Source of the DNA: Antedon mediterranea
Taxonomy: Eukaryota; Echinodermata; Crinoidea; Comatulida; Antedonidae
Length of the DNA stretch: 64,000 nt
Direction: 5' to 3'
Assembly (NCBI RefSeq): GCF_964355755.1
Contig: NC_092670.1
Span: 39,853,795 to 39,917,794, forward strand
In this document: in pieces, positions 8,901 to 53,430 of the stretch
Numbering within the stretch: position 1 is the stretch's first letter
Layout: each line of letters begins with the position of its first letter
Program-made: the position numbers and the translations under genes
The notes under the pieces: generated by a model
What the model saw: the letters and a program-made list of their open reading frames with translations, nothing else
What the model was told of the DNA's origin: nothing
Database searches by the model: none

Positions 8901-11900
8901 GATTATATGATTTTGATTAAATATACTGACTGTTCAGTCAACTCTGTCAATACCAGACACCTTTGGGCAGGCCAAATATGTCTGGTTTTCCGGAAAGTCT
9001 GGTATTCGGAATGTGTTTTTAATGTTAAAAACAAATTTGGGACCTTTTGGACCACAAGAAAAGTCAGGTATTGAGAGAGCTGAATGTATAACTACATTAA
9101 GAAACAAACCTTCATTGGAGGAAACTTGGAGTAGGGTGCTGTACCAGTAGCCAACTCAATTGCCGTGATACCAAAACTCCAGATATCAGCTTTAAAATCA
9201 TACCCAGAAATCTGAAGAAAAAAATTAGCAATGGTTTTTGATTTGTTCAAGTATCGAATCAGTCTATCAATTACGACTGAAAAAACAATTTAATGTAAGA
9301 GGTGAGTTCATATTATGGTGTAGCAGTTAGTTGGAATAATTGATGCATTTTATGTAAGGTCAAAATTTGAGTAGCGAAAGCCGATTTATTTTGGTCTTGT
9401 TTATTATATTTGTTTTATATTGAAGTTTCTATATTATGTTATGAAAGTGACAATAAAGTATTACACACAATATAGCAAGATCCGTTTCAGTGGCGGATCC
9501 AGGATTTTAAAATAGGGGGGCCTAAAATTGGTGAAATGAAGGGCTGAGCTTAATTTGATGTCCTATCTTTTGCATTACAATTTGCGAAATTTAAGGTGGG
9601 GCAGGGCTGGCTGCCCACCTCCCCTTGAATCTTCCCCCTGCATTTTGAATGTTAAGGTGTGTGTACACCGAGCAATTGGGATAAGCAACAACAAAAACCT
9701 AAAACAGTGAGAGGGGGTTGTTGAGGGGGGATGGGGGGTTGTTGAGGGGGATGGGGGTTGTTGAGGGGGGGGATGGGGGTTGAGGGGGCAGGGTGTTGTT
9801 ACCTGCTCCATGACCTCAGGGGCCATCCAGCAAGGTGTTCCTACAAACGTTGTACGATATTTATCTCTTGACATGTCACCACTCGTAGCCAACCAGCTAC
9901 TAACTCCAAAGTCAGCTAACTTAACTGACCCATCATCACCCAACAAGATGTTACCAGCTTTCACATCCCTAATAACAAAAGGACATATTGTTAAATATGT
10001 TGAAAGACGTTTACTGACCGTAGCTTGACCAAGAATCTGGCACAATTTGCAGAATAACATTACAAATTTATAATCAGTTAAAAAAACAATTAAAGACTTC
10101 AACCAATGCTATGACAGTATGTTGGATTATCTTAAGCTCTGTCTAGACACTATCAAAGTAGTTTGACAAAAAAGGTGTGATGTGCCCATATACAGTAGTG
10201 GTATGCCCAAATATGGTTGTGATATGACATCATCATGTCCATATATGGGCACTTCACATTTTGTTGTCACACAAAGTTTAATAGGGTAGGCAAGGCTTTA
10301 GATATGTTAAATAATATAAACATATTACACATTTATTTAACGACCTCTTTCTCATCTATTATAAACAAAACTATTGCATAATAACAAAAATGTCTATCAA
10401 ATGTAATGTTTTGCTTAGAATGTTTCTATTCCAAAATATGAATTTCCATTCATCCCTTTTTTACCAACATACCTATGGATTTGACCACTTTCATGTAAAT
10501 ACTCCAATCCTTTCAAAACTTCTCGTAAAATTGTTGCTATAGTAATTTCATCTAATAATTCTCCTTTATTTTTACCCTTCTTTATCTTGTGTTTTATAAT
10601 ATCTAACACAGACCCTGTAAAGAAAAAAACAGAATATATACATAATTAAAATGTACAGAACATGATGAGATGGGATTACACAACTAATGCTCAATTGCTA
10701 TTTTTAAAAAGAATGACGCAGATAAATCTAGTGAAAATCATCTTTTTATTCTGAAGCTCTTTCTACACTATTAAATTTTATGTGACAAAAAAATGTGATG
10801 TGTCCATATATGGACATGATGATGTCATATCACTATCATATTTGGGCTTACCACTACTGTATATGGGCACATCACACCTTTTTTGTCAAACTAGTTTGAT
10901 AGTGTGGACAGAGCTTTAGTGTAGTAATGATTTGGCTAAATTAGTATTTTACCTGCAGATAACAATTTCATTACAAGCCATAGTTCTTCATTAAACACAA
11001 ATGATGTGTAGTAGGTGACGACATTCTCATGTTTGCAATGTCCCATAAACTGGATTTCCTTCTACAAAATAAATGGATGATTGATGGAGTTTAATTTATT
11101 GATGAATTGATTGACTAAAATATACATTAATGACATATTGAGAGGCTACCAAACAGCACTCATTGGTCTGTCCACGACAGGGCCTGAATCAACACCTGTG
11201 TACATCCTTAAGCCCCCCCCCCCCCCACAGCCTTCTTCAACATATTTCAATGCCCGTTTTTTTCGTCTGGGAACGGCTCAGGGGCTTACTGTAGTACATA
11301 AGCTCAGAGGCCCTGGGTTTAGCTAGTGAGCGCTTATAGCTGTTACGCTACTGGGTACATCTCTTTAGATAGAAGAAGCACCAAGTTCTTTCAAGTGCAC
11401 ACAATTTGATTATGTAGTACAGTGTACCTCTAGTTTTAAGTCCCTATTACAGAAGACTTTAAACTGCTCGGCCACTTGACTACTGTAAATACGAAATAAT
11501 AAAAAGTATTGTTTGTTACTAACCCAGAGCTCATCCATGGATGTCATGCATTTTTCCAAATTAATTCTTTTGATCGCAACCTTTTCTTCCCGAGCTTTAC
11601 AGTAGGCCTCTTGCACATATGCAGTTGCTCCATGACCTACAAGAAAACCATTCAAGTAGTAAATTCAAATTAGTATTCCTTGATTTTTACGCACAATATT
11701 GATTTTACTTTCCAATATGGTAAGTAGGCTAATGTCAGGTACCTACTTACAATAACATGATTTATTACCTATTGCAATGTTAACCTAAATAATCTTCTGA
11801 ATTATTAAGTAAGATGTGTATGAAACTCATACGGATGAAATAATTGGAAATAATATTATGAAAAAATATTGTATAATAAAAAATTGATGACCAAACAATA

Positions 11901-14534: not shown

Positions 14535-15517
14535 TTGGACCCGTATAAAATTAATTAATTACCGCCACCGTGCCACCACCGTGTGTCGGTCGTTTCGTAC
14601 CTGATCGCTTGTACGTTACTTCTGCTCCCCGCTTTTGGTTTCGTTTACGCATGTCCACAAATATACGTCATACTGTATATCAGATCGTTCGCGGCGGCGA
14701 ATCGGCTCTCAGTCTCTCATAGTAGATATAGCCTACTTTTATTGTCACATAATAATTATAAAATGTGGGACTCAGCTCCCCGTTACATTCGTAATAAAAA
14801 ACACCATGTAAAAACATCAATACAATTCGATATAAGTCAAATACCTTGTAGGCCTATCGTACAGTTCATCGTCGTACTATTATATTTATAGTAGGGCCTA
14901 CCTATGTTTGTACTAAAATTAAGATCATACTTAGTATGATCTAAGTTAAATAAAAATTCTATGAAATCAAAATTGTCAAAAATCTGTCGTCCCAATAACT
15001 ACTAGCCAATCAAACAGAACATGCGCATAACTCAAATACCACATGCGCCCAATTGTCTCGCAAGAGAAGTCTGATAAAACAATATAAAAACATTAGCAAA
15101 ATATTAATCGTTTAAAATAATATTGGTTTTAATGATTGTCAATTAGTTTATTGTTGAAATTACTACAACAATAATTAGTATGACGTCATCATTACGTATA
15201 GAATAAGGCAGCTGAATTTAAGATTAATTTTGATCTCTGTAAGATATGACCGTCCTGATGTAAACGGTATATAGAAGATGTCACTCAGACACCTGCTGAA
15301 CAATATACCGTTTCTGCAAGTCGATAACATTTTCTTAATACTTCGATTTCTATCATCAACCCAAACAAGATGAATGATAATTGTTTCATAAGCTCAAATA
15401 ATAACAAAGCACTTATGACGTATGATATATAGTTTCTATGCCAACGTGAGTGCGAATGCTTTTTGACCAATCAGAAGTAGGTGTACTGCGAGTGAACCCT
15501 GATGTTGGTTGTAAAGT

Positions 15518-15524
15518 TATAAAA
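15518..15524 (+). promoter_or_regulatory. TATA box of the MCH-like peptide gene
   Basis: TATAAAA lies about 80 bp upstream of a good donor (CGGTAACC|gtaagt at 15604/15605). This suggests a non-coding first exon of roughly 15548-15604. It is about 1 kb from the divergently transcribed OSR1 start. Confidence 0.5.
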
Positions 15525-15718
15525 AGTGAATTGGGAGCATTTCATTAGAAATTGAGTAAGGGTTTGGTTAGGTTCGGTAACCACTGGAGGAACGGACGGT
15601 AACCGTAAGTAATTTTGCTTATTTTGTTCATTATTATTTGAAGTAAAATTATTAAATTGTCATCCTTGTGAGGTAAGTATATACATATTTTACAACTTGA
15701 TGTAGCCGATGCACAATA

Positions 15719-15870
15719 CAGCTCTGTCTACACTATCAAACTAGTTTGAAACAAAAAAAAGGTACCGGTAGTGATGCTCAAATGATGTGGTAGTGATATG
15801 ACATCATCATGTCCATATGGGCACATCATATTTTTCACATAAAGTAGTTTGATAGTATAGACAAGGCTTA
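15719..15870 (+). mobile_element. Fold-back family A, copy 8
   Basis: It lies in the 5'-UTR intron of the MCH-like peptide gene. The middle is altered (GGTACCGGTAGTGATGC replaces the usual GTGTGATGTGCCC). Confidence 0.8.
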
Positions 15871-16117
15871 ACGGACTGTTAAAATATAGTTTGGAAGTAA
15901 AGCTTTACAATTTTATATAATAAATTAGGTTACACATAAGTTGTTTTTTTGCGATAATAATATTAAGCGATTGTATCAAAGTGTCCGAAAACAAGGACTT
16001 AATCCACACTCTCCACCGTCACATTTTTTAACTATTGCTAGAATATTATCAGATGGATTTAACGAAATATACCAATTGAATTGAACGTTTTTGTTTTCAT
16101 TTAATTATAGACTAAAA

Positions 16118-17910
16118 ATGCAAAAGTTAGTGCTACTCTGCCTTGTTATCATGATAGTGGCGGCAAGCGCGGTATTTGCAGCAGCAGCAGACGACTGGTC
16201 TTTGCCGCCTAAATTTGACGATAGACCCCTCACTGATGCTACCGCGGCTGAGGCAACTAAGGTTAGTATCACCAATTAACCATACTAGGTCACAGTGTGA
16301 TAACCTAAATAATGCAGCATTCGTTCACTTTGTATGTGTCTTAATATAGTTCACCACCTAAATAATGCAGCATTCATTCACTTTGTATGTGTCTTAATAT
16401 AGTTCACCACCTCCAGAGGTTTAAATTGGAATTCTGAATCGTTTCTATATATTTCCTAATTTGTGAAAACACATGGTTTAAAGAGACTGTAATGACTGTC
16501 AAATAATCATTCTGTCGAATTTTATTCTATTACCATCATACACTATAGTGGTCTTTTTATTGTTATTGACGGTGAGTTTAGTATACTATTAATTCAAATG
16601 CGCTTCTGTTCTGTTTCATTTGTTTAAAACGTATCAATTAAATTAATTAAGCCTTGGTTGCCACGTCGTGAACGTAACGCGATGCAGCGACGTAGGCGCA
16701 ACGCAATTTGACCACAATCACAAGCAACAATTCGGAAGACCCATCTTGGTCAAATTACTTGCATTACGTCTAAAGCTCTGTCTACACTATCAAACTTTAT
16801 GTGACAAAAAAAGTGGTGTGCCCACGTCACTACCATATTTGGGCATATCACCACCATATTTGGGCACATCACACTTTTTTTTTGTCAAACAAGTTTGATA
16901 GTGTAGACATGCAGAGCTTAAGTGACAACGAAGCTTTATTTATTAAATAAAGCGCTATGTCGATATTTGAATTCAAGTTTGTAAACATTTTTTAAAGGAT
17001 AATGTTGGTTCACATACATCCACTATCCTGAAGCGAAGCAGGAACTCATCCGTGCGTCTTGTTCCCTGTATGGACTGGCTTCGAAAAAGATGGCGATATT
17101 GCTGGGTTAGATCAAAGGTATTTTAATCTATTTAAAGAATTACTTGCACCCACGTAAGCATTATAGATGAAATTAAAGAAGTTTCTCTAAATGAAAATAA
17201 TCTCAAATGTTATTAAGTTACTAATTTTCCTATGAAAACACTTTCATTTCCATAATAGACCCTATCACTTCCTTTAGATTGCACGACTTTGAAATCTTTA
17301 TTTAACATGTAATTCATTTTCGTTGAGATAACGAGAGAGAAGGCAACAAAACACAGTTAAATTAACCAAATTCAATCTAAAGATGAGGAAAACCAAACCG
17401 TCCAATGGGATTGTTAAACCGCGTGAATATGCTGATGCTGCTTCCTCTCGTCCGTTTGAGCGTACCCCAACGCCTCTCATGAGAACGCGTTAAACGGAGT
17501 ATGTTCGCACGGATAACGCGTTAAATAAACTGATTCACGTATTTAGCACATGCGCAGGGGAAATGGTTACCGTTTGGTAACCAACATTTGTAACCTGCGA
17601 TAATTAACCCCATTGCGTATAATGTAAAGGAAAGATTGGAATAATTCGAATTAAACTTAATACATTTGAATTATTTGCCAAGCGGCCAATAAAATACAAT
17701 ATACCGCAACAACATTTCTTATTTTGCTTCATTAATTATCCAGTAACTCATTGTGATAAAACTAATGCATTTTAGTCCATAACAACCCATCAAAACTTTA
17801 TGCATTTCCATGATACGTTTAATATCATCATCTTCATCTAGACATCATCAAATTATTAAAATTTAAATAAAAAGTATGTTTAATGATTTTTGTCATTTCA
17901 GTCAAGCTAA
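16118..17910 (+). CDS. Secreted neuropeptide-type precursor, MCH-like, 90 aa
   Basis: Coding exons 16118-16261, 16998-17117 and 17902-17910 all join in phase 0 (AAG|gttagt, aaag|GAT, AAAG|gtattt, ttcag|TCAAGCTAA). Residues 1-24 form a clear signal peptide (MQKLVLLCLVIMIVAASAVF...). A dibasic LKR site at 59-61 precedes a 29-residue C-terminal peptide containing PCMDWLRKRWRYCWV, with cysteines at 72 and 83. Melanin-concentrating hormone (MCH) precursors have this layout: the peptide is at the extreme C-terminus after a dibasic site, with CM near the first cysteine, RVYRPCW at the second, and a disulfide ring. Here the ring would hold ten residues instead of MCH's eight, and it contains an RKR that could be cut. 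Hence a peptide hormone is well supported, and the MCH relationship is an inference. Alternatives are a urotensin-like or lineage-specific cyclic peptide. A TATA-driven non-coding exon precedes it. Confidence 0.68.
16296..16412. repeat. Direct duplication of about 52 bp
   Basis: The block AATAATGCAGCATTCRTTCA ... TATAGTTCACCACCT occurs twice in tandem with one difference, in the intron after the signal-peptide exon. Confidence 0.85.
16649..16938. mobile_element. Fold-back family B, copy 2, split by a family A insertion
   Basis: The left part runs from GCCTTGGTTGCCACGTC through TTGACCACAATCACAAGC to CTTGCATTACGT. It resumes after 16920 as AGTGACAACGAAGCTTTA. The interruption is the family A copy at 16771-16920. 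Confidence 0.75.
16771..16920 (-). mobile_element. Fold-back family A, copy 9, nested in family B
   Basis: Both ends are complete. The middle carries two CACCATATTTGGGCA modules. It sits inside the right arm of a family B element, 78 bp before an exon of the MCH-like gene. Confidence 0.85.
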
Positions 17911-47261: not shown

Positions 47262-50200
47262 ATGGCGATGACAACAGAGAACTATGACGTGGCTACAACG
47301 GCAGAAGATGAAGTGACGTCTGCACCAGAAATACCGAGACTTCTAAACCTGTTCTTGGTAGCGTACCTTCTAATATTCGGACTCATCGGTTTCTTTGGCA
47401 ACCTATCCGTCATCAGTATTTTTAGAACGTGAGTACACGCAGTATATGGTCACCATGCACTGCTGCAACGTGTAGTAGCACAATGTATCTGTACAATCAT
47501 CACAGAATCTTTATTTAAACATCGCACGGTTCACGATTTTCTTTCAAAGGTAGTTATTATTTCACTTTCACGTCACTAAAACAATACGCAACTCAGTTTC
47601 AAGTTTCAAGTTTCAATTTATTTTCAAAATTGCAAGATAATTTGTTGAGATATCATCTCGTCACCTTGCACTGCAGAAACGTGTAGTACACTATATGTAT
47701 CTGTACAATCGTCACAATATCTTTATTTAAACATCGCACGGTTCACGATTTTCTTTCAAAAGTAGTTATTATTTCACTTTCACGTCACTAAAACAATACG
47801 CAACTCAGTTTCAAGTTTCACGTTTCAATTTATTTTCAAAATTGCAAGTTTATAAGATAATTTGTTGAGATATCATCTCGTCACCTTTCACTGCAGAAAC
47901 GTGTAGTACATGTATCAAATTGTCACACTTTGTGTACATCGCCCAGTTCACGATTCCAAATGTTTATATTTCACTTTCAAGTTTCAATTTATTTTCAAAA
48001 TTGCATGAATATAAAAGATAATTTGAAGAGATAATTGGTAAAGATAAAGCAAAAATGGAGGGAAAAAACCAAAATAGCAATGCTCGTTGTTATGGCTACC
48101 CTTATACATAATATAACCTTTTAAAAATACACCTTTTTCCCTATAAGTAATGTTTACCAGATGATAGATGATATTTTAAAGCGCTTTGATCATTGTCAAA
48201 GGCTCTATACAAATGACAATGTTATGTTAATATGTTATTTTCTAGACAAAAAATGATGTAATGAGATAGCAGTTTTTATCGTTTTAATTCCATTTTATGT
48301 GTAGGCCTATACCTCGTTTTCTTTTTCTTGTTGTCTTGTATACAAATTGATTGGATACAATGATTTTGACCAAATAAAATGAATGAATGAATTCCTCATA
48401 AATGAAGCAATCCATCCAGAATTGTTCTTATCTTTCTTTTTACTCATTGATAAACAGAATAAGATCTTTACAAAATTTGAAAATCCAAAATGGCGGCTTT
48501 CCCGAGGCCACAGAAGATCTAGAACTTTTTTGGTGGATATATAAGCCCCATATGACATTAATCAGTTGAAAAGCACTTGTTTCTAATTTTCCCAGAGAAA
48601 GTAGAAAATGGGGATACTGAGAGGCCTATTCTTATATGTACATAGGCCTATTAATACATATATACTTAACTTCTATTCTGGATGATCGCGAGCTAGCATT
48701 TTACTCATAACGTATATTGATATGATTCACAGAACAAGATCTTTACAAACACCAGGCAACATGCTGATCATCAATCTAGCTACAAGTGATATTCTGATGG
48801 TTATCACGCAGTTTCCTGCAATGTTTGTGAATACAGTAGCTGGAAAATTTCTGTTGGGAGACATAGGTAAGAATGGTTCTTTAAGTAGACAACAAGACAT
48901 CATATTTGAGTTACTTTTTCTTATTGTTGTAATGAAAACAAAATGAAAATCATGTGCGGCCGAGAAATGTATAAATAGTATGCGAGTAGCATAGTAGGAG
49001 TGAGTGGCCGAGCGGTTGAGACAATGGAACCGTAATTACGTAGCCATAACATCGACCAGGCTTCGAGGCTCACTCGCTCCATGGTTCTGGTGGTAGAACG
49101 AGTCTTCTCGGATAAGGACTATAAACCGCAGGTACAGTGTACACATCTGGCTCATGTACACTTTAAAAAACCTAATACATCTTTCGAGACGCGTAGGGGG
49201 TTAGCCTGGTGTACTAGTAGCCTACACACAGCCACTGATCATATCTGGGCCCTCTGGGAGACCAGTCTTTGACTGAAGAGGTTACCCAGTATGTAAATAA
49301 TTACCAAAGAGGTCACCCAGTATGTAAGAGGTCACCCAGTATGTAAATAATTAACAAATAAAACTATACGGAGAATGAATTAACACAATTGAATTCGTTT
49401 TATTTCAAACTTATAAATATTCTTTCACACAGGTTGTCAGATATATGCTTTCTTCGGTTCCACATTCGGTATCATGTCAATTACATCGATGGCCACCATA
49501 GCACTTGACCGTTATTACGTAATATGTAACGCAATGAGAGCAACTCGAACGGTGACCAAGAAGCGCTCACGGTACATCATACTGTTCGTATGGTTATACT
49601 CGCTGACGTGGTCAGTTCCTCCTTTATTTGGATTCGGACGATACACATCTGAAGGATACGATCTTAGCTGTACATTTGATTATCAAGATCAAGCTACCAA
49701 CAACATGATCTTCGTTGGCTTGATATTTGTAACGGATTTTTTTCTTCCGCTTATTGTGATCATCTGCTGCTACACAAAGATCGTAATATCAGTTAGAAAA
49801 CATCGAATAGGTATGAAGAAAATTGTGGATAGCAAACGTGACAGCACAAAGTCAAAGCAAATCGCAGAGGAGAAAAAAGAATTCAAAATCGCTAAAATCG
49901 GTATGATTATAACTGCTCTATTCTGTATAGCGTGGCTACCATATGCTACCGTTGCTTTTATTGGTCAGTTCATAGACGAAGAAATACCGACACCACTTCT
50001 GCAAACACTACCGGTCGTCTTCGCAAAGAGCTCGTGTGTCGTTAACCCAATCGTATACGCCATAACACACGATAAGTTTAAAGCAGCACTCACACAAAAA
50101 TACATAAAAATGTGTTGCAGTCAGTATGAGAAAGACTCAAGAGCGAGTCAGTATAAAGGCGGTCGTAGCATGGCCAAGCGAGAGTCATCTATTGCAAGCA

Positions 50201-50394
50201 CGGTTAACAGCATGGAGTTTAATCTAGAGGACGACCCACCGAAGGTGGATACTAAACAGCCAAATGTTGTCGAAAAAGGCAACACTGACGTCGTACAGCA
50301 ACCATCGTCCAACACGGACAAGCCCGTAGTGGTTGCCGCAATCAGTGGTGGAATAGACAACCCAGCATTACAACTAGAAAACACCGACCTATAG
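47262..50394 (+). CDS. Rhabdomeric-type (melanopsin-like, Gq) opsin, complete
   Basis: Exons 47262-47428, 48733-48866 and 49433-50394 join in phase and give 420 aa. Seven membrane segments are visible. Key residues: Cys102 and Cys180 for the extracellular disulfide; Tyr105 at the classic counterion site, as in r-opsins and melanopsin, with Glu174 in loop 2 (TSEGYDLSC); DRY at 126-128; and retinal-binding Lys299 in VVFAKSSCVVNPIVYAI. The third intracellular loop has EEKKEFKIAKIG, the pattern of Gq-coupled opsins, and GCQIYAFFGSTFGIMSITSM matches melanopsins. In this family light isomerises bound retinal, activating Gq and phospholipase C in microvillar photoreceptors. The usual HPK after helix 7 is HDK here. 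The tail is Ser/Thr/Lys-rich and ends in TDL, a class I PDZ-ligand pattern. The start was chosen at the first ATG of the open frame, which gives a 28-residue acidic, N-glycosylatable-looking N-terminus. Melanopsin/r-opsin placement is well supported by motif. Confidence 0.93.
47469..48000. repeat. Tandem repeat of about 215 bp in opsin intron 1, 2.5 copies
   Basis: Each copy has ACATCGCACGGTTCACGATT, TTTCACTTTCACGTCACTAA and CAATTTATTTTCAAAATTGC. The copies start near 47469, 47681 and 47899. The third is shortened. Confidence 0.85.
48470..48560. other. Repeat-like block in opsin intron 1
   Basis: CCAAAATGGCGGCTTTCCCG and neighbouring sequence look like part of a dispersed repeat; the minus strand has an open frame of 83 codons without recognisable motifs. 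Confidence 0.2.
48996..49275 (+). mobile_element. tRNA-derived SINE in opsin intron 2
   Basis: The head GAGTGGCCGAGCGGTTGAG is a strong A box of tRNA-Ser/Leu type, and GGCTTCGAGGCTC lies where the B box belongs. The two arms GGAGTGAGT and CTCACTCGCTCC pair as an acceptor stem would. The body has ACGAGTCTTCTCGGATAAGG ACTATAAACCGCAGG, a segment type shared by many marine-invertebrate SINEs. It is not a functional tRNA: the anticodon arm is irregular. Confidence 0.65.
49276..49348. repeat. Short direct repeats at the SINE tail
   Basis: GAGGTTACCCAGTATGTAA and GAGGTCACCCAGTATGTAA occur three times in 70 bp, right after the SINE. This resembles the variable tail repeats of some SINE families. Confidence 0.6.
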
Positions 50395-51523: not shown

Positions 51524-52348
51524 TATATCTAGGCCTATATATATCTATATCAGGGTATATCTAGGCCTATATATATATATCTATATCAGGGTATATCTAG
51601 GCCTATATATATATATCTATATCAGGGTATATCTAGGCCTATATATATATATATATATATATCAGGGTATATCTAGGCCTATATATATATATATATCAGG
51701 GTATATCTAGGCCTATATATATATATATCTATATCAGGGTATATCTAGGCCTATATATATATATCTATATCAGGGTATATCTAGGCCTATATATATATAT
51801 ATCTATATCAGGGTATATCTAGGCCTATATATATATATATCTATATCAGGGTATATCTAGGCCTATATATATATATCTATATCAGGGTATATCTAGGCCT
51901 ATATATATATATCTATATCAGAGTATATCTAGGCATATATATATCTATATCAGAGTATATCTAGGCCTATATATATCTATATCAGAGTATATCTAGGCCT
52001 ATATATATCTATATCAGGGTATATCTAGGCCTATATATATATATATCTATATCAGGGTATATCTAGGCCTATATATATATATATCTATATCAGGGTATAT
52101 CTAGGCCTATATATATATATCTATATCAGGGTATATCTAGGCCTATATATATATATCTATATCAGAGTATATCTAGGCCTATATATATCTATATCAGAGT
52201 ATATCTAGGCCTATATATATCTATATCAGAGTATATCTAGGCCTATATATATCTATATCAGGGTATATCTAGGCCTATATATATATATATCTATATCAGG
52301 GTATATCTAGGCCTATATATATATATCTATATCAGAGTATATCTAGAC
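51521..52348. repeat. Satellite-like array of about 36-bp units
   Basis: The unit reads GGGTATATCTAGGCCTATAT, a variable run of TA, then CTATATCA. About 20 copies are present, with GGG or GAG starts and changing TA length. The final GTATATCTAG is continuous with the reverse-transcriptase reading frame that follows. Confidence 0.95.
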
Positions 52349-53430
52349 TGCCGTAAAGCATTTGATATGGTACCTCATGAAAGACTGATAGCTAAACTGA
52401 GAGCAATGGGTATATCAGGCAAAATCCTAAAGTGGACATCCAACTTTCTTCATGATAGACGTCAGCGTGTCTCTGTTAAAGGGCAACTATCATGTTGGCT
52501 ACCAGTGACTAGTGGAGTCGTCCAAGGCTCAGTACTAGGTCCAGTACTCTTCCTGATCTTTATAAATGACATTCTTGACTCAATCAACTCCAACGGCAAG
52601 TTATTTGCGGATGATGCAAAAGTATATCGCCGCATACGCTCTGAAAATGATGCCCAAATGCTTCAAAAAGACCTTGACAAACTCATGGAGTAAACGCTGG
52701 CTTCTCCAGTTCAATGAGACAAAGTGTAATGTTGTACATATGAGGTCGCAAAATCCTAATTATACATATCTTCTTGGTGACACTGATCTTGCATCTGTGA
52801 CTGAGCAAAGTGATCTGGGATTAACTGTTACTACAGATTTCAAATTCAAAACACACGTAAACAAGATTGTCGCAAAAGCTAATGGCAGAATTGCAATGAT
52901 TAGGCGCACCTTCACTTACTTAGATAAAGAGATATTCATCCCATTGTATAAAACGCTAATTCGTCCACTCTTAGAGTACTGTGTACAAGTGTGGTCACCT
53001 AACCAAGTTGGACTCAAGAAGATTTTAGAAAGAGCACAAAACCGAGCAACCAAACTTGTACCTGAACTTAGGAATCTTCCCGCTGATGAGCGTCTTGCCA
53101 TGCTTCACCTACCAACACTCCAAGAAAGACGAGATAGAGGTGATCTCATTGAAATGTTCAAAATTATCCGTGGTATAGTAAACATTGAGGCAAATTCATT
53201 TTTCACTCTAAGGCAGAACCCCGGAGGTTATATAACCAGAGGACACTCACTTACACTATCTAAACCTAGATACAAAACCATCAGGAGATATACCTATTTT
53301 GACGTCAGAGCAATCAACTAATGGAACTCACTACCAGAACATGTAATTAACAGCACAAACACAAATTCATTCAAAAACAACCTCGACATTCACATAAAGA
53401 AAAGGAGAGGAGGCAACTATTACGAGCATT
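52340..53430 (+). pseudogene. Non-LTR retrotransposon reverse-transcriptase fragment, frameshifted
   Basis: The first frame (52340-52693) holds RT motif A VYLDCRKAFDMVPHERL, motif B SGVVQGSVLGPVLFLIFIND and motif C LFADDAKVY. A one-base shift near 52690 moves to a second frame (to 53321) with WSKRWLLQFNETKC, LLEYCVQVWSPNQVG and the C-terminal DLIEMFKIIRGI. An in-frame stop in place of an expected codon precedes WNSLPEHVINS at about 53322. This is the pattern of jockey/CR1-like elements. The 5' part (endonuclease and N-terminal RT) is missing and begins at the satellite array. The copy is inactive because of truncation and frameshift. Confidence 0.9.

Follow-up and report, generated by a model that had tools for sequence, protein, structure and literature searches.

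Does a stretch of 64,000 nucleotides of the Antedon mediterranea genome (C1:39853795-39917794 of 354 Mb; hereafter the window) contain, behind an open frame that looks trivial, a gene for a relative of melanin-concentrating hormone (MCH)? The original prediction, made from the letters, described such a gene as hidden and spread over three tiny coding exons. We are highly confident that the locus is a single-copy crinoid MCH-type neuropeptide precursor gene, the product of which would be a secreted, KR-cleaved, disulphide-ringed peptide most likely acting on a receptor encoded on C11. What is new here is the genomic locus, the exon structure and the copy number of a peptide known from crinoid transcript and genome surveys, together with a caveat on the retention of intron 2, an MCH-receptor-type GPCR on C11, an array of receptor genes on C2 and the finding that synteny gives no support to vertebrate orthology. 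Candidate receptor genes are thereby named in the same genome as the peptide gene.

Gene structure and precursor

The three coding exons listed in Table 1, all on the + strand, join into a frame for a 90-residue precursor, MQKLVLLCLVIMIVAASAVFAAAADDWSLPPKFDDRPLTDATAAEATKDNVGSHTSTILKRSRNSSVRLVPCMDWLRKRWRYCWVRSKSS, closed by a stop codon. Both introns are of the GT-AG type and both are in phase 0. The precursor is laid out as a predicted signal peptide, a spacer, the dibasic KR and a 29-residue peptide, SRNSSVRLVPCMDWLRKRWRYCWVRSKSS, that runs to the stop. Three-exon, phase-0 splicing to a precursor of this length, as originally proposed, is thus borne out by the GT-AG joins and by the translation; the unspliced frame from the ATG at 16118, which had been given as 62 codons, actually comprises 53. 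The signal peptide was called from hydropathy only, with a hydrophobic core at approximately residues 4-20 and an alanine-rich cleavage region before DDW. Upstream of coding exon 1, a GTAAGT donor-like site at 15605 and an acceptor at 16111 form a pair that, together with the TATAAAA at 15518, is consistent with a putative 5' non-coding exon.

The donor of intron 1 (AAG/GTTAGT) agrees with the consensus at eight of nine positions and that of intron 2 (AAG/GTATTT) at seven of nine, a score of at least 7 being reached by 163 of the 3719 GT sites on the same strand. Intron 2 combines a moderate donor with a good acceptor. If it were retained, the frame would end in RSKVF (VF and a stop codon at 17118-17126) and the precursor would again be 90 residues long. 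Intron 2 is the weak point of the gene model, and coding exon 3 stands as an unproven candidate. Since the splicing of intron 2 decides only the last two residues (SS or VF), the hormone core is independent of coding exon 3. Finally, a genome-wide search with the exon-2 protein returns a single match, the exon itself, and the gene is single-copy.

Table 1. Features of the MCH-type gene (positions in the window)
Feature	Position	Strand	Basis and remarks
TATAAAA, candidate TATA box	15518..15524	+	Some 30 bases before the putative start of transcription (~15548); sequence only
Putative 5' non-coding exon, followed by a GTAAGT donor	15548..15604	+	Read from the letters alone; start taken from the original prediction
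Coding exon 1 (48 codons): predicted signal peptide and start of the spacer	16118..16261	+	Sequence, hydropathy
Intron 1, phase 0	16262..16997	+	GT-AG; holds a 53-nt tandem duplication and a MITE-like inverted repeat
Coding exon 2: remaining spacer, KR and 27 residues of the MCH-type peptide with both cysteines	16998..17117	+	Translation
Dibasic KR codons (aagcga), residues 12-13 of exon 2; predicted to free the peptide	17031..17036	+	
Peptide residues 1-27, SRNSSVRLVPCMDWLRKRWRYCWVRSK; cysteines at 11 and 22	17037..17117	+	Translation
Coding exon 3: SS and stop TAA	17902..17910	+	Sequence; candidate exon

Membership of the crinoid MCH-type family

MCH-type precursors have been described in starfish, sea urchin and acorn worm (PMC4772807), and one is also known in brittle stars (PMC5627052). 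The crinoid members were reported in 2022 in a survey of Anneissia japonica and Florometra serratissima besides Antedon mediterranea, for which AmMCHP is given as a 91-residue precursor with a 29-residue peptide, AmMCH (PMC9793003). The crinoid MCH-type family is thus already known, and the gene described here is neither hidden, as was first claimed, nor new; the accompanying remark that MCH has candidate relatives in ambulacrarians, on the other hand, agrees with all of these published precursors, from starfish, sea urchin, brittle star, acorn worm and crinoid alike.

AmMCH is published with C11, D13, W19, R20 and C22, and with the crinoid-specific residues V or L at position 6 and W at position 23 (PMC9793003). 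In the same numbering, the C-terminal peptide of the window, likewise of 29 residues, has cysteines at 11 and 22 with D13, W19 and R20 between them, and V6 and W23 as its crinoid-type residues. Compared in this way, through published lengths and residues, the two differ in the length of the precursor, which is 91 residues in the publication and 90 in the window. Eleutherozoan MCH-type peptides differ from those of crinoids in having R at position 6 in place of V/L and R at position 23 in place of W.

The broader layout also agrees. In ambulacrarians a C-terminal two-cysteine peptide follows a dibasic site, the starfish precursor has 88 residues, and the ring is normally longer than in vertebrates by a two-residue insertion, DW or DV, that follows a conserved CM or CI (PMC4772807). 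The window precursor is similarly short (90 residues), with a hydrophobic N-terminus and one C-terminal peptide after KR, and its C-M-D-W ... R-Y-C contains the M/I, the DW/DV insertion and the basic residue penultimate to the second cysteine. ArMCHP of Asterias rubens, Spnp14 of sea urchin and the Saccoglossus precursor share with it the short precursor, the dibasic site, the C-terminal two-cysteine peptide, the DW/DV and the ten-residue ring. The MCH-like reading of the original prediction is therefore supported by residues, peptide length and layout (PMC9793003; PMC4772807). Its remark that the ring has ten residues instead of eight is correct as to the number enclosed, but this is no oddity, since it is the ambulacrarian norm (PMC4772807).

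The same survey prints an Antedon mediterranea kisspeptin-type peptide, AmKP1.1 (QTSSCSHNACLRILPF), preceded by LRIKKKPK (PMC9793003). A degenerate CSHNACLRILP pattern has one match in the genome, at C7:8165074; its translation, CLRIKKKPKQTSSCSHNACLRILPFGKR, with LRIKKKPK-QTSSCSHNACLRILPFG, is identical to the printed AmKP1.1 and cleavage region, as expected if the genome is that of Antedon mediterranea or of a closely related feather star.

Candidate receptors

An MCH-receptor-type GPCR, for which the original prediction had suggested looking in the genome, is present. With human MCHR1 as the query (checked against PDB entry 8wss), the best genome match lies in an unbroken frame, C11:16669938-16670801 (E 2.6e-41). 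In a tree of 32 rows the C11 protein forms a group with human MCHR1/MCHR2 and the C2 tandem array at 97/93, and in a smaller tree the C11 protein groups with the same two receptors at 90/96. However, its placement among the somatostatin receptors (SSTRs) is not rejected (p-AU 0.116), and by plain phmmer score it matches somatostatin receptors first (SSTR2). For these two reasons we call the C11 frame only a probable MCH-type receptor gene. The next-best MCHR1 match, L005, falls among the somatostatin/opioid receptors in the 32-row tree, and its placement with the MCHRs is rejected (p-AU 0.028). Two MCH-type receptors, ArMCHR1/2, are on record for starfish (PMC7536072), and amphioxus and acorn worm are also stated to have receptors of this type (PMC5860471); we found no literature on an echinoderm MCH receptor under that name.

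The array on C2 (25175038-25199282 and 27077079-27118295) comprises six or more divergent GPCR genes that resemble MCH receptors and stand in tandem (L006, L007, L008, L010, L011 and L021); they are 73-99.7% alike. In the alignment E replaces D at their position 3.32, and they lie in the MCHR clade but on a long branch. L005 (C1:23987893-23988720) is a somatostatin-type receptor candidate, with SSTR1 as its best phmmer match (E 4.1e-71). A further GPCR, L012 (C1:16285124-16285957), is urotensin-II-receptor-like: its best PDB match is UTS2R (E 2.2e-42), with which it groups at 100/99 in the tree.

Alternative readings and relation to vertebrate MCH

We may ask whether small open frames could have been assembled here by chance, without any gene. 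The exons are indeed tiny, the introns contain repeats and the intron 2 donor is moderate. Yet the signature C[MI]Dx5WRxC, which is present a single time in the window across all six frames, occurs in none of 100 simulated 64-kb windows of the same dinucleotide make-up, and in peptide length, in the place of the KR and in seven diagnostic residues the precursor matches a crinoid one that was published independently. Chance assembly is scarcely credible, and the agreement with the published crinoid MCH-type family refutes it. A looser pattern (a dibasic site, then C[MI]x8-10C) has three occurrences in the window where 1.2 are expected, which is not significant alone. It is also very improbable that the precursor is of the somatostatin/allatostatin-C type, with a two-cysteine ring like that of somatostatin-14 and an SSTR-type receptor as its target. 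The ring of somatostatin-14 does enclose ten residues, as many as that of the window peptide, and a somatostatin-type receptor candidate, L005, exists in the genome. Moreover, SS/ASTC genes typically carry an N-terminal phase-0 intron (PMC7536072), like the one seen here, and the precursor families that PMC9793003 lists for crinoids do not include a somatostatin type. The likeness to somatostatin, allatostatin-C and echinoderm SS1 and SS2 thus extends to a C-terminal disulphide ring peptide, related receptors and a phase-0 N-terminal intron, but the stretch between the cysteines, CMDWLRKRWRYC, has neither the FWK/IWK core of echinoderm SS2 nor the FxP core of SS1 (PMC8851493; PMC7536072), and the residues that it does have are exactly those by which published work recognises MCH in echinoderms and crinoids. 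The starfish somatostatin peptide ArSS2 used as a query has no detectable match in the genome, the MCH-type locus included, although so short a query makes a weak test.

Membership of the echinoderm MCH-type family is compatible with a further reading, which concerns wider orthology: that echinoderm 'MCH' resembles vertebrate MCH by convergence, or through a deeper tie within the somatostatin family, and not by direct descent. We regard this as unlikely. In its favour, the similarity is limited to a few ring residues, and chromosomal position offers no help to orthology: of WASHC3, PAH, UTP20 and GNPTAB, which we take to be the neighbours of human PMCH, the first three lie on C2 and GNPTAB on C7, while the MCH-type gene lies on C1. 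At the chromosome level, synteny therefore gives no support for orthology with vertebrate PMCH, which it makes less likely but does not exclude, four markers being few and small genes being able to change chromosome; it is a caution that the claim of orthology is carried by sequence resemblance alone. The vertebrate-built Pfam model of Pro-MCH (PF05824) does not match the precursor, nor does any other Pfam model; over the whole genome the Pro-MCH model has no matches, but as it has none in control genomes either, this is uninformative. Intron 2 of human PMCH interrupts a codon just behind the third residue of MCH (PMC6901935), whereas that of the window is in phase 0 after peptide residue 27; differing in both phase and position, it is not shared.

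Against convergence stand the MCH-type receptors in the same genome and in starfish, and the ring itself. Human MCH has the ring C-M-L-G-R-V-Y-R-P-C-W, and with DW left out the crinoid ring, C-M-L-R-K-R-W-R-Y-C-W, aligns with it in the form C-M-L ... R-x-C-W. The likeness to vertebrate PMCH further includes two coding introns, a signal peptide and a C-terminal disulphide peptide after a dibasic site; the vertebrate gene differs in its ring of eight, in its precursor of about 165 residues with NEI and NGE peptides, and in its genomic neighbours. The W that follows the second cysteine is common to crinoids and vertebrates and is replaced by R in other echinoderms (PMC9793003), which suggests that W is the ancestral state.

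Proposed processing and mode of action

For the MCH-type precursor, the signal peptide would send the 90-residue chain into the secretory pathway, where cleavage by a proprotein convertase after KR would free the 29-residue C-terminal peptide. By analogy with vertebrate MCH, a disulphide between Cys11 and Cys22 would close a ring enclosing ten residues, inside which an RKR is located. The peptide would then be released as a neurohormone, presumably from neural tissue, and would most likely act through the C11 class A GPCR of MCH type and G proteins. Trimming at R25/K27 might remove the tail RSKSS from the C-terminus, so that the peptide would end in ...YCWV, near the vertebrate end CWQV. The calculated average mass is about 3641 Da for the oxidised 29-mer and about 3096 Da for the form that ends in CWV.

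A joint view of crinoid divergence can be put forward, though we hold it to be doubtful. In crinoids the C-W and V end, which is vertebrate-like, would have been kept, with RSK trimmed to give CWV, so that this end would have been lost in eleutherozoans; at the same time, the C2 array would represent a lineage-specific expansion of MCH receptors. As far as we found, neither the CWV end nor the C2 expansion has been described.

Repeats and neighbouring genes in the window

The perfect CRE at 15181, TGACGTCA, was discarded as evidence for a neuropeptide gene, since five copies occur in the window. Rfam and tRNA scans of the window are empty. A MITE-like element with the terminal inverted repeat CTGTCTACACTATCAAAC recurs, its end sequence being present in 17 copies within the window; one pair of these ends lies upstream of exon 1 of the MCH-type gene (15724-15863) and one in its intron 1 (~16778-16909). 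The tandem duplication of 53 nt in the same intron spans 16303-16408, and its units are 98% identical.

Further downstream, an intact frame of 325 codons at 49417-50394 (+) encodes the part of a Gq-type (rhabdomeric-like) opsin that begins at roughly transmembrane helix two or three; the retinal lysine lies in FAKSS, and among PDB entries squid rhodopsin matches best (E 1.9e-56). Downstream of the opsin there is a reverse transcriptase fragment at 52241-52693 (+) (Pfam RVT_1, E 9.4e-17), overlapped by an open frame of 251 codons (52566-53321) with no Pfam match. On the opposite strand, about 6 kb upstream of the MCH-type gene, a protein kinase exon is located at 9575-10108 (-) (Pfam Pkinase, E 1.5e-12).
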